Assembly: GCF_020144665.1 (NCBI RefSeq)
Contig: NZ_JAAHBQ010000012.1
Span: 1 to 64,000 of the forward strand
Direction of reading: 5' to 3'
DNA from: Oscillatoria salina IIICB1
Lineage (GTDB): Bacteria > Cyanobacteriota > Cyanobacteriia > Cyanobacteriales > SIO1D9
DNA: 64,000 bases
Below, piece by piece: positions 25,946 to 51,339 of the stretch; position 1 is the first letter of the stretch; the number at the start of each line of letters is the position of its first letter. The position numbers and the translations under genes were made by a program. The notes under the pieces are model-generated. The model searched no databases. It saw only the letters and a list, made by a program, of their open reading frames with translations, and had not been told where the DNA came from.

Positions 25946-26035
25946 GTGGTTAGTAGTTAGTGGTTAGTAGTTAGGGGTGGAGTTACCAAAAAAACTAACT
26001 ACTAATTACTAGCAAAGAATAACTAACAAAGGATA
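25946..26035. repeat. Short repeats (GTTAGTAGTTAGTGG type) between atpA and the gamma gene
   Basis: GTGGTTAGTAGTTAGTGG is followed, about 30 bases on, by the roughly complementary ACTAACTACTAATTACTAG, which can form a hairpin within the operon. Invasion of an operon spacer by this repeat class is notable. Confidence 0.6.
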
Positions 26036-26040
26036 AAGTT

Positions 26041-26985
26041 ATGGCAAATCTCAAAGCAATCCGCGATCGCATTCAGTCAGTTAAAAATACTAAGAAAATT
26101 ACCGAGGCGATGCGCCTGGTAGCCGCAGCGAAAGTACGTCGCGCCCAAGAACAGGTTACATCTACTCGTCCTTTTGCCGATCGCTTGGCGCAAGTTCTCT
26201 ATGGTTTGCAAAATCGTCTTCAATTTGAAGATGCCGATTTGCCTTTGCTTAAGCAAAGAGAAGTTAAAACTGTAGGGTTACTGGTAGTGTCCGGCGATCG
26301 TGGTCTTTGTGGCGCTTACAATAGCAATATTATCAAGCGTACAGAGAGCCGCGCTAGAGAATTAGAAGCCCAAGGAATTGATTACAAATACATTATCGTG
26401 GGACGCAAAGCTACGCAGTATTTCCGCCGTCGTGAAGCTCCCATTGAAGCCAGTTATACTGGTTTAGAACAAATTCCTACCGCCGCAGAAGCTTCTAATA
26501 TTGCGGATGAGTTATTGTCTTTGTTTCTTTCGGAAACTGTAGACCGAGTAGAATTAGTTTACACTCGATTTGTTTCTTTAATTAGTTCTCGCCCAGTAAT
26601 TCAAACTCTGCTACCTTTGACAGCCCAAGGGTTAGAAACTACTGATGATGAAATCTTCCGCTTGACTACTCGTGGCGGTGATTTTCAAGTCGAACGAGAA
26701 AAGGTAAGTACCGAAACTCGCAGCTTTCCTAGAGATATGATTTTTGAGCAAGATCCAGTGCAAATTCTCGACGCACTCTTGCCTTTATATCTCAATAATC
26801 AATTGCTGCGAGCATTGCAAGAGTCAGCCGCTAGCGAACTCGCAGCGCGAATGACAGCAATGAATAACGCTAGTGACAATGCTAGTGAGTTAATTGGTAC
26901 GCTTACTTTGTCTTATAACAAAGCTCGACAAGCGTCAATTACTCAGGAAATTCTTGAAGTTGTTGCTGGTGCTGAAGCACTTTAA
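26041..26985 (+). CDS. atpC: ATP synthase F1 subunit gamma
   Basis: 314 residues, called atpG in E. coli naming. The N-terminal helix [35 protein letters not shown] and the C-terminal [23 protein letters not shown] form the rotating coiled coil. [12 protein letters not shown] is conserved. The length exceeds the E. coli protein by about 30 residues, consistent with the regulatory insertion of cyanobacterial gamma (around 200-240), which lacks the redox cysteine pair found in plants. Last gene of the operon. Confidence 0.97.
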
Positions 26986-47541: not shown

Positions 47542-47994
47542 ATGAGTAAATTTTTTGACTTTGAAGCCGATTTTGTCGATTCTCTGCGCTGCATTCCCAT
47601 GCAAGTGCGTTATAAACTAGATACTTGTGGCGTGAAACTGAAGCTAAACCATTGGCATCAATTCAGCGAAGAAGAACGACGGACATTAGTCGAAATCCCT
47701 TGTCAGACTGAATCAGAAGCCAGAGGATATCGAGAATATTTACAAAATTTAGTCACAAGATATACAGGTAGCGAAGCCAAAGAACTAGCGATTGCCGAAC
47801 ATCCTCCCTGGTTAGATGGGGAGACAGTACCCACTGATACCCAAATTAAAGCACAAGAATTCGGAGTAGCGATCGCCCCCCAACAATGGGCAAATTTAAC
47901 TCCCCTCCAACGCTTCGCTTTAATTAAACTTTCTCGCCCTTCCCACGAAAACAAAAACTTTTATCCTGCCCTCAAAGAATTCCACTTGATTTAA
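47542..47994 (+). CDS. Nitrate reductase-associated protein
   Basis: 150 residues beginning FFDFEADFVDSLRCIPMQVRYKLDTCGVKLKL and containing LNHWHQFS, HPPWLD and LTPLQRFALIKLSRPSHENKNF. This matches a small family found next to nitrate reductase genes in cyanobacteria and plants. Its role is unknown; assembly or regulation of NarB has been suggested from context only. It follows narB by 560 bases and has an NtcA box upstream. Confidence 0.88.
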   Translation: MSKFFDFEADFVDSLRCIPMQVRYKLDTCGVKLKLNHWHQFSEEERRTLVEIPCQTESEARGYREYLQNLVTRYTGSEAKELAIAEHPPWLDGETVPTDTQIKAQEFGVAIAPQQWANLTPLQRFALIKLSRPSHENKNFYPALKEFHLI

Positions 47995-48552
47995 GTATTA
48001 ATAAAGTGAAATACAATCTGTTTTATTTACCAAAAATTAACTATAAAAAAGCTATAAATAATTGATAAAGTGTTTGTCATTTAAACACAAATATTAGTAA
48101 TTAAAATTCTGGAGGGCGATTATCGCGATCGCTATTTATTATTCGCTGCTATATATCTAACTTAGCAATTTATTTTTATTGAAATAAACTTTTTGAATTT
48201 TACTAATAGCTTACTTCTTCGTTGACAAATCACTGATTTTACTAACCATAAGCTTCCTGAGATTTGAGTAAATTTTTCAGCAGCAATCTGAATAGAAAAG
48301 TCAAATGATGCTGTCTAACAGAATACAAATTTTCCAAGATTAACCCAACTAAACAGAAAAAATTACTTTTTGGTAAAGATATTTAACTCAAAGTATCGGC
48401 TTTGTTACCATATTTCAGTCTATTGATAGTTGAATAACTAGTGAAATTAAGCTTAAAATAGCGATTGATTGTCGCGATTTTAATTATCGTAAAAATAATT
48501 AAAATCGCTTAAAACTTCTTAACACACTTATTTAAGATCGGAAAAAATAGGA
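47995..48552. other. Gene-free region upstream of the ethylene-receptor-like kinase
   Basis: 558 bases, AT-rich, no open frame of note and no clear hairpin. It presumably holds the promoter of the kinase gene. Confidence 0.35.
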
Positions 48553-50055
48553 ATGATTAATTCTTTTTTAGTAAATTATTTTATACCTCACGGTCATTGC
48601 TATTTGTGGAAAACCGGACTTGTAGGTCTACATACTAGCTCAGATGCTTTAATTAGTTTAGCTTATTTTTTGATACCTCTTGAGTTAATTTACATTGTCA
48701 AGAAGCGCCAAGACATACCTTTTGATTGGGTATTTATGCTCTTTAGTTCTTTTATTATTTGTTGTGGAATTACTCACGTCATGGAAATTTGGACGCTTTG
48801 GCATCCTAATTATTGGCTTTCAGGTTATCTCAAAGCAGTCACAGCAGTTGTTTCACTTTGTACTGCTTGGGTGGTTGTAGAATTGATTCCTAAAGTTTTA
48901 GCAATTCCCAGTCCCGAACAACTAAAAAGGGCAAATTTAGCTCTGGAAAACGAAATTAAAGAGCGAAAACAAATTCAGGAAAAATTGAGTCAACTAACCT
49001 CAGAATTAGAAGAAAGAGTACAACAAAGAACGGCAGAATTAGAAAGAGCAAATAAACTCTTGCAACAGGAAAATAAAGAACGCTCCTTAGCAGAAGAAGC
49101 TTTACGTCAATCGGAATACAGACTTCAGCAAAAAGCTGAAGAACTGGCGATTACGCTCCAAGAACTCCAACAAGCAGAAGCTCAATTAGTGCAGAGTGAA
49201 AAAATGACATCTCTAGGGCAGATGGTAGCAGGTATTGCCCACGAAATCAACAATCCTATCAATTTTATTTATGCCAATATTCCACCAATTAACGAATATA
49301 CCAAAAATTTTTTAGAATTAATTGAACTATATCAAAAACATTATCCTCAACCTGTTGCTGAAATTGCCGAAAAAATTGAAGAAATAGAACTAGATTTTAT
49401 TGCCAAGGACGTTGGCAAAATTGTTAATTCTATCAAAATTGGCTCGGAAAGAATTAGAGGAATTATTAAATCTTTACGCACTTTTTCTCGTTTAGATGAA
49501 TCAGAAAAGAAAGAAATAGAAATTCATGAGGGAATTGACAGTACATTAATGCTTTTGCAGCATCGAATTAAAGAAAACTCTCATTGTTCAGCAATTGAAA
49601 TCATTAAAAATTATGGCGAATTACCATTAGTTGAGTGTTATGCAAGTAAAATCAATCAGGTATTGATGAATATTTTTAGTAATGCCATCGATGCGTTAGA
49701 AGAAAAGCAAAGAAAAATGAAAGCCAATACAGAGTATAATTCGTTAGAAGCAAATTTTTCTCCACGAATTGAAATTAGTACCAACGTAGTTGAAAATACG
49801 TGGGTACAAATTGAGATTACTGATAATGGTATTGGTATTAGTCCGGACGTTTGCCAAAAAATTTACGATCCATTTTATACAACTAAACCTGTAGGTTATG
49901 GAACTGGATTAGGTTTAGCAATTTCTTATCAAATTATTAACAACGAGCATCGAGGAATTTTAACGTGTGTTTCGGAACTAGAAAAAGAAACTAAATTTAT
50001 TATTAAAATTCCTCTTAATACTAGCAAGAAAAAAGTTAACAACTTTTGCTCTTAA
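48553..50055 (+). CDS. Histidine kinase with ethylene-binding (ETR1-like) N-terminus
   Basis: 500 residues. Three membrane helices (about 26-115) closely resemble the plant ethylene receptor: SDALISLAYFLIPLELIYIVKK, then FIICCGITHVMEIW. They keep the copper/ethylene ligands Cys71 and His75 (C-x3-H) and the essential Asp31. A long coiled coil (about 125-215) leads to the HisKA phosphoacceptor in GIAHEINNPINF and a HATPase with NIFSNAID, DNGIGI, DPFYTTKP and GTGLGLAISYQ boxes. No GAF, PAS, phytochrome or receiver domain is present, unlike plant receptors and Synechocystis SynEtr1. The partner response regulator is not nearby. Confidence 0.9.
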   Translation: MINSFLVNYFIPHGHCYLWKTGLVGLHTSSDALISLAYFLIPLELIYIVKKRQDIPFDWVFMLFSSFIICCGITHVMEIWTLWHPNYWLSGYLKAVTAVVSLCTAWVVVELIPKVLAIPSPEQLKRANLALENEIKERKQIQEKLSQLTSELEERVQQRTAELERANKLLQQENKERSLAEEALRQSEYRLQQKAEELAITLQELQQAEAQLVQSEKMTSLGQMVAGIAHEINNPINFIYANIPPINEYTKNFLELIELYQKHYPQPVAEIAEKIEEIELDFIAKDVGKIVNSIKIGSERIRGIIKSLRTFSRLDESEKKEIEIHEGIDSTLMLLQHRIKENSHCSAIEIIKNYGELPLVECYASKINQVLMNIFSNAIDALEEKQRKMKANTEYNSLEANFSPRIEISTNVVENTWVQIEITDNGIGISPDVCQKIYDPFYTTKPVGYGTGLGLAISYQIINNEHRGILTCVSELEKETKFIIKIPLNTSKKKVNNFCS

Positions 50056-50112: not shown

Positions 50113-51339
50113 TTAATTTTTTGAACCTTTTTCCGGGTTAATAGTAAAAGCAAAAAATCCTGCTAGGATTGTAATTACGCCAGTTACCCAGAAAGAAGAT
50201 CGATAGCCAAAATAATCTACTAATAGTCCGGCTGTAGCGGGACCTAAAGCTTGAGAAATACTAAAATAAGAGGTATTAACTCCTAAAATTTCTCCTTGTT
50301 CTGCCTCTTTTGTTTTTGTTGACAAAATTGATGTAACTAGAGGTCTCGGGAAAGCATTAGTTACTCCTAAGAAGGCAGCTAAAATAAAAAAGATGACAAT
50401 TTCTGGAAAAGTTGGCATGAGGAGAAAAACTATGCCTCGTGCTAGCAAAGCTACGCCAAGAATATAGATAATTTTAAATTTTTGATTGAGAGGTTCTAAG
50501 AAGAAAATTTCAGTGATTACACCAAATAAGCCAATTAGAGCAAATAAAATTGCGATAGTTTGTTCTTTTTGGTTAAGAACATTAAGCAAAAATGGTTGAA
50601 AGGCGAAGGCGAAAATTGTAAAGGTAAAACCAATTAAAAAAGTTATCAAAAATAGATCGCCAAATTGCCGAGTTAAATTAAATTTAAGCAGTTGACCAAA
50701 ACCCAAATCGCGCCAATTTAAAGAAAAGTTATTGTTTTCTTGTTTGGCGGGAGGAGCGGTTTCTGGTAAGAAAAATAAAACTAAAGAAGTAGCGATTGAG
50801 GCAATACCTGATGCTACTAAAAAACTCATTCCTAAAGAAGAAACTCCAGGAACTGTGGGTAAATTTTGAGCTATGTAACTTAAGGTTGGACCTGCAACAA
50901 CACCTAAGCGAAAACAAGCGCCAAAAATGCCAAAAGCTTTGGCTCGTTCTTCCTTACTAGTAGTATCGCTAATTACAGCGCGAGCGATGGATATATTTCC
51001 ACCTGTCAAACCATCAAAAATGCGGGCGACAAACAATAGCCAAGCCCAAGAAGTGAAAGCAGCAATGATATTAGCAATTACGGTTCCGAGGAGACTAACT
51101 ACTAATACTGGTTTGCGCCCAAAATAGTCAGATAGTTTGCCTAAAACTGGTGTAGCAATAAATTTAGAGATCGGGAAAACACTGACTAACAAACTTGCCT
51201 GAAAATCATTTAAGCCAAATGTTCTTGCATAGGGATAAATGATGGGAATAATAATAGTAAAAGTAACTGAATTGATAAAAGCAACTGAGGCAGCAATCCA
51301 AAACCGGAGCGGGAGATTAAAGTTTTGCAAAAAATTCAT
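50113..51339 (-). CDS. MFS transporter (drug/sugar efflux type)
   Basis: 408 residues with 12 predicted helices. The loop 2-3 motif is GKLSDYFGRKPVL, and FDGLTGGNISIARAVISD resembles TetA-like efflux pumps of the DHA1 group. It is likely a proton-driven exporter of unknown substrate in the plasma membrane. It is convergent with the ethylene-receptor-like kinase, 57 bases apart, without a clear shared terminator. Confidence 0.87.
   Translation of the reverse strand: MNFLQNFNLPLRFWIAASVAFINSVTFTIIIPIIYPYARTFGLNDFQASLLVSVFPISKFIATPVLGKLSDYFGRKPVLVVSLLGTVIANIIAAFTSWAWLLFVARIFDGLTGGNISIARAVISDTTSKEERAKAFGIFGACFRLGVVAGPTLSYIAQNLPTVPGVSSLGMSFLVASGIASIATSLVLFFLPETAPPAKQENNNFSLNWRDLGFGQLLKFNLTRQFGDLFLITFLIGFTFTIFAFAFQPFLLNVLNQKEQTIAILFALIGLFGVITEIFFLEPLNQKFKIIYILGVALLARGIVFLLMPTFPEIVIFFILAAFLGVTNAFPRPLVTSILSTKTKEAEQGEILGVNTSYFSISQALGPATAGLLVDYFGYRSSFWVTGVITILAGFFAFTINPEKGSKN

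Follow-up and report, generated by a model that had tools for sequence, protein, structure and literature searches.

A compact ethylene-receptor-like histidine kinase of Oscillatoria salina IIICB1 and the putative adenylyl cyclase operon of its close relatives

Introduction

Plant ethylene receptors are thought to derive from cyanobacteria, and the plant receptor ETR1 has a copper cofactor. In the open literature that we consulted, the sole cyanobacterial output pathway described runs from SynEtr1 through slr1213 to csiR1. The stretch of DNA analysed here (64,000 nucleotides of Oscillatoria salina IIICB1, contig NZ_JAAHBQ010000012.1; hereafter the window) carries a gene that an earlier note, made from the sequence alone, had described as encoding a minimal ethylene-receptor-like histidine kinase. 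The locus raises two questions: whether so short a protein has what an ethylene sensor requires, and which output it could serve.

Results

The window gene is one open reading frame, from ATG to stop, encoding 500 amino acids. The following features were assigned to it:

48553..50055, + strand: compact ethylene-domain histidine kinase (open reading frame; PF25487, E = 6.1e-41; HATPase_c, E = 2.7e-20)
48613..48900, + strand: three predicted transmembrane helices (residues 21–51, 58–83, and 87–116), putative ethylene-binding domain (AlphaFold2 model, hydropathy, helical phase, and alignment)
48913..49197, + strand: linker, a long helix/coiled coil of about 95 residues (about 121–215) (Pfam and AlphaFold2 model)
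49237..50019, + strand: kinase core (Pfam, motif inspection, and PDB fold matches to histidine kinases)

Pfam analysis bore out the claim of an ethylene-receptor-type N-terminus, with PF25487 (ETR1_N) covering residues 23–118 (profile positions 2–97 of 97) at 139 bits (cut-off 27). The kinase core had been called a complete HisKA/HATPase unit. This held for HATPase_c, which was complete (residues 365–489), whereas the HisKA profile matched the H-box helix only (residues 221–242) and at 26.2 bits fell below its cut-off of 26.9; yet the phospho-acceptor His230 and the N (373–382), G1 (424–429), F (439–445), and G2 (450–456) boxes were intact, and both DHp helices were present in the AlphaFold2 model. 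We read the partial match as an effect of a longer stretch between the two DHp helices, which, according to the family consensus, is common to a large cyanobacterial kinase family. Foldseek recovered PDB histidine kinases as fold matches to the model. As had been stated, no PAS, GAF, or phytochrome domain was detected by Pfam between sensor and kinase, and the protein accordingly lacks the GAF domain that plant-type receptors have in this position.

The ETR1 positions that we take to be required for ethylene binding are D25, Y32, I35, P36, I62, C65, and H69. All seven were identical in the window protein (D31, Y38, I41, P42, I68, C71, and H75), and the Asp, Cys, and His for copper and ethylene binding, which had been said to be retained, aligned with their ETR1 counterparts as D31, C71, and H75. 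K94, the counterpart of ETR1 K91, was also conserved. To judge conservation, the protein was aligned with ETR1 and with about 90 relatives; in the ETR1 sequence used, D25, C65, and K91 agree with PMC11819568. The same seven binding residues are present in experimentally studied cyanobacterial receptors, for which a single N-terminal cysteine has been noted (PMC6682694); the window protein likewise has a single one, C16.

Structure prediction from the single sequence was poor (mean pLDDT 51.5), and a model built with 32 sequences was used instead (mean pLDDT 79.7). In this model, three helices are followed by one continuous helix (residues 121–263) that runs into the kinase, and much of the ATP-binding core exceeds a pLDDT of 90. 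Judged by helical phase, which gives no distances, C71, H75, and I68 lie on one face of helix 2, and D31, Y38, and P42 lie on another helix face. A sequence search of the PDB returned no solved homologue of the sensor domain. Domain, residue, and model evidence support the proposed compact arrangement of a putative copper/ethylene sensor, a coiled coil, and a histidine kinase.

Comparison with known systems showed both likenesses and differences. SynEtr1 of Synechocystis PCC 6803 (slr1212/UirS/PixA/Hik44) is also cyanobacterial, with an N-terminal ethylene-binding domain and a C-terminal histidine kinase, but it has a light-sensing cyanobacteriochrome in between and a cognate response regulator, slr1213, whereas the window protein has a helix only and no adjacent regulator. 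GeiEtr1 and GeiEtr2 of Geitlerinema PCC 7105 share all seven binding residues and the single N-terminal cysteine, yet they have additional domains, either a GAF domain or a combination of PAS, GAF, and receiver (PMC6682694). AzoEtr1 of Azospirillum brasilense is likewise a compact ethylene-binding histidine kinase (525 amino acids), but it has a PAS domain, and its gene and that of a response regulator overlap (PMC11819568). Plant ETR1 and ERS1 share the ethylene-binding helices, with 38% identity to ETR1 (43 of 113 aligned residues), and differ in having a GAF domain, two N-terminal cysteines, and signalling mainly via a Ser/Thr kinase without histidine-kinase activity. In the open literature searched, which did not extend to subscription surveys, only forms with GAF (GeiEtr1), PAS (AzoEtr1), or a cyanobacteriochrome (SynEtr1) were described. 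By its sequence, the window protein is a bacterial ethylene receptor with a stripped architecture; the new part is its genomic context, a paired-sensor/cyclase operon found in its relatives.

The compact form is a recurrent architecture and not a singularity, because 18 relatives in the order match the window protein over its full length with 64–67% identity (E below 1e-200); the next matches stand clearly apart, at about 1e-166. Matches at E ≤ 1e-125 were found in 33 of the 389 genomes of the order, and the ethylene domain itself occurs in 114 of 148 sampled genomes. The genome of O. salina IIICB1 (5.96 Mb, 163 contigs) encodes six ethylene-domain proteins, namely the window protein and the following five:

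Ethylene-domain protein 2: 1480 amino acids, PAS-kinase-receiver-Hpt
Ethylene-domain protein 3: 1258 amino acids, GAF-kinase-receiver
Ethylene-domain protein 4: 746 amino acids, PAS-GGDEF-EAL
Ethylene-domain protein 5: 1048 amino acids, PAS-GAF-kinase
Ethylene-domain protein 6: 1400 amino acids, PAS-GAF-kinase-receiver-Hpt

The fusion of an ethylene domain to PAS-GGDEF-EAL, on contig C64 (domain at 25993–26352; L069:7925–10165), places the sensor directly on c-di-GMP enzymes. The same contig carries a run of four genes (C64:4300–15176; L120) encoding an ethylene-domain GAF-kinase-receiver, a GAF-kinase-receiver, a receiver-GGDEF-EAL, and a receiver-kinase; this run parallels the operon of the relatives described below, but terminates in c-di-GMP enzymes.

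The neighbourhoods of the 18 relatives were annotated for domains, and examples were rechecked by Pfam. In all 17 relatives with enough downstream sequence, a same-strand gene for a large hybrid kinase-receiver came next, and in 14 of these 17 the third gene encoded a receiver fused to a class III adenylyl cyclase (377–642 amino acids). The third gene encodes a receiver-GGDEF-EAL protein in G103 and is missing in G151; in G354, the contig terminates within the receiver of the third gene. At the nine loci where the intergenic distances were measured, the extremes were an overlap of 4 bases and a gap of 210 bases. The cyclases examined have the metal Asp pair together with the Lys and Asp residues that typically confer specificity for ATP, and cAMP is therefore the expected product. 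The output, which the earlier note had called unknown, is thus narrowed through the relatives, although the window copy itself has no such neighbours. Thirteen of the 18 relatives belong to one family (f2), so that independent support comes from approximately four families plus a second cyclase-linked clade. The open literature searched, with subscription papers outside its coverage, contained no such paired-sensor/cyclase operon, and on links between ethylene receptors and adenylate cyclase or MHYT it gave only reviews and irrelevant papers. In most relatives, the operon is preceded by a divergent AAA_35 (NB-ARC-like) gene (e.g., L072:6884–8215), and in L241 a similar gene adjoins the locus of the second cyclase-linked clade.

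The hybrid-kinase partner begins with a second ethylene domain in 13 genomes, whereas in five others (G316, G151, G164, G103, and G007) an MHYT domain takes this place; in G007, the contig breaks off within an MHYT-PAS gene, which is what an MHYT hybrid kinase would show. In one direct comparison, the hybrids of G164 (h164, MHYT) and G055 (h055, ethylene domain) were 68.5% identical over their common remainder, which points to a sensor swapped on one scaffold. This swap suggests that the ethylene domain and MHYT are interchangeable copper-gas sensors. The MHYT regulator CoxC is a copper-dependent membrane gas sensor that detects CO through copper (PMC11347149), although it belongs to another domain family and is a LytTR-type repressor. 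Such partners lend some weight to the alternative that the window protein is a general copper-gas sensor with a different ligand, which could be CO, NO, O2, or the copper, and that ethylene is incidental. We consider this unlikely, since the window protein keeps every ETR1 ethylene-binding residue, and ethylene is bound by the ethylene-domain proteins of both Synechocystis and Azospirillum (PMC6682694, PMC11819568).

The association with cyclases was compared with that at 69 control loci, which have the same kinase core and no ethylene domain (flanks of at most 8 kb; locus length above 14 kb in 50 cases). A cyclase lay within two genes at none of these loci and anywhere in the flanks at one. 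No cyclase was found near the next-nearest compact ethylene-domain kinases (L075, L077, L080, L082, and L135–L137), among which L075 and L082 have a gene for a receiver-GGDEF-EAL protein in their vicinity. The second cyclase-linked clade also consists of compact ethylene-domain kinases, but their kinase core is a different one. At L085:4040–7499 and L241:1153–4917, the kinase is followed by a single-domain response regulator and a cyclase protein, identified in L085 by Pfam as receiver-GAF-cyclase. Within this clade, the order of regulator and cyclase was seen in G007 and G021, and only the response regulator follows the kinase in G135. Related kinases in L115, L116, L117, L119, and L141 have shortened or altered ethylene domains, in which the Asp25 position is absent from the open reading frame and the His is changed in some; in this clade, the same kinase scaffold may have lost the ability to bind ethylene.

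The window gene has the following neighbours:

47542..47994, + strand: Nitr_red_assoc (nitrate reductase-associated protein), end of the nirA-nrtP-narB cluster, upstream neighbour
50113..51339, − strand: convergent MFS transporter gene, downstream neighbour, occupying the position of the relatives' hybrid kinase

The gap from Nitr_red_assoc, on the same strand, is 558 bases, and the MFS gene ends 57 bases downstream of the window gene. The statement that no response regulator is adjacent was therefore correct; neither a receiver nor a cyclase gene lies beside the window gene, and the window copy is not part of a paired-sensor/cyclase operon. NtcA-like GTAN8TAC sites precede nirA (40724), nrtP (42676 and 42743), and Nitr_red_assoc (47423 and 47455).

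In a maximum-likelihood tree of 19 rows, the window gene fell inside the operon clade (support 100/100) as sister to G316 (support 99/92), which is still in the operon and has an MHYT partner; both branches are rather long (0.51 for the window gene and 0.46 for G316). Given this nested position, the window lineage probably lost or left the operon. The lack of partners beside the gene and its moderately long branch would also fit a drifting orphan whose function was lost along with the operon, but the frame is full-length, all catalytic and binding residues are intact, and the branch of the operon-borne sister is similar, which makes such decay quite improbable. Recruitment to nitrate assimilation, to which the same-strand position after Nitr_red_assoc and the NtcA-like sites of the preceding genes might point, is very improbable, as the nearest relatives adjoin signalling genes and the nitrate-gene neighbourhood recurs in none of the 18 relatives; nitrogen control of the window gene is likewise disfavoured by its own upstream gap (47995–48552), which has no GTAN8TAC site.

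If the window lineage did leave the operon, a partner may be encoded elsewhere in the genome, where one candidate is the sole MHYT protein:

C45:24388–28026 (L229:6889–10530): lone MHYT hybrid kinase-receiver, 1213 amino acids

This protein aligns with the G316 partner over its whole length (45%). Its pairing with the window protein remains a guess because other kinases are better matches to its kinase half. Its MHYT part matches NCBIfam NF038348, the other half of which is the best NCBIfam match of the kinase core of the window protein. At least four receiver-cyclases are encoded elsewhere in the genome (C24, C96, C41, and C10). With more than 150 receiver or cyclase matches, the kinase network is large and partner assignment is therefore uncertain; for any particular partner in this genome, we consider the assignment doubtful.

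Discussion

We propose that the three membrane helices of the window protein hold a Cu(I) site (Cys71, His75, and Asp31) that would bind ethylene or a similar small gas, and that binding would shift the continuous helix that connects the membrane with the DHp domain, thereby altering autophosphorylation of His230. Binding of copper and of ethylene (or a related gas) is likely on the evidence of the conserved residues and the predicted fold, and the kinase would be controlled through the long helix. Autophosphorylation would probably be lowered on binding, as reported for ETR1; ethylene inhibits ETR1 kinase activity, and there is indirect evidence of the same for SynEtr1 (PMC11819568). The phosphate would then pass to receiver domains.

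In the relatives, the receivers would be those of the partner hybrid kinase, which carries a second sensor of the copper-gas type (ethylene domain or MHYT), and of the receiver-class III adenylyl cyclase. From the placement of these receivers, the ancestral output would be cAMP, and c-di-GMP in one relative; we lean slightly towards an ancestral pathway that ended in cAMP. In the genome of O. salina IIICB1, the operon context appears to have been lost, and the window protein, if functional, would work with an unlinked receiver. Taken as a whole, the reading of the window protein as a copper-dependent ethylene-sensing kinase with an ancestral cAMP output (c-di-GMP in one case) seems to us reasonably probable.

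More tentatively, and with less confidence than in that reading, filamentous cyanobacteria may possess a paired copper-gas module, in which an ethylene kinase and an ethylene or MHYT (CO-type) kinase jointly feed a receiver-adenylyl cyclase and so connect ethylene and CO to cAMP. The window gene could then be a relocated member that signals via unlinked partners, for example the C45 MHYT hybrid.

The compact kinase, with nothing between the sensor and the DHp domain, would be a convenient object for studying how ethylene binding controls phosphorylation. An operon that joins ethylene-domain kinases to an adenylyl cyclase would, if true, constitute a second, biochemically tractable cyanobacterial output. 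In Synechocystis, motility involves cAMP (PMC7076178), and such an ethylene-to-cAMP operon would explain how ethylene could act on motility.
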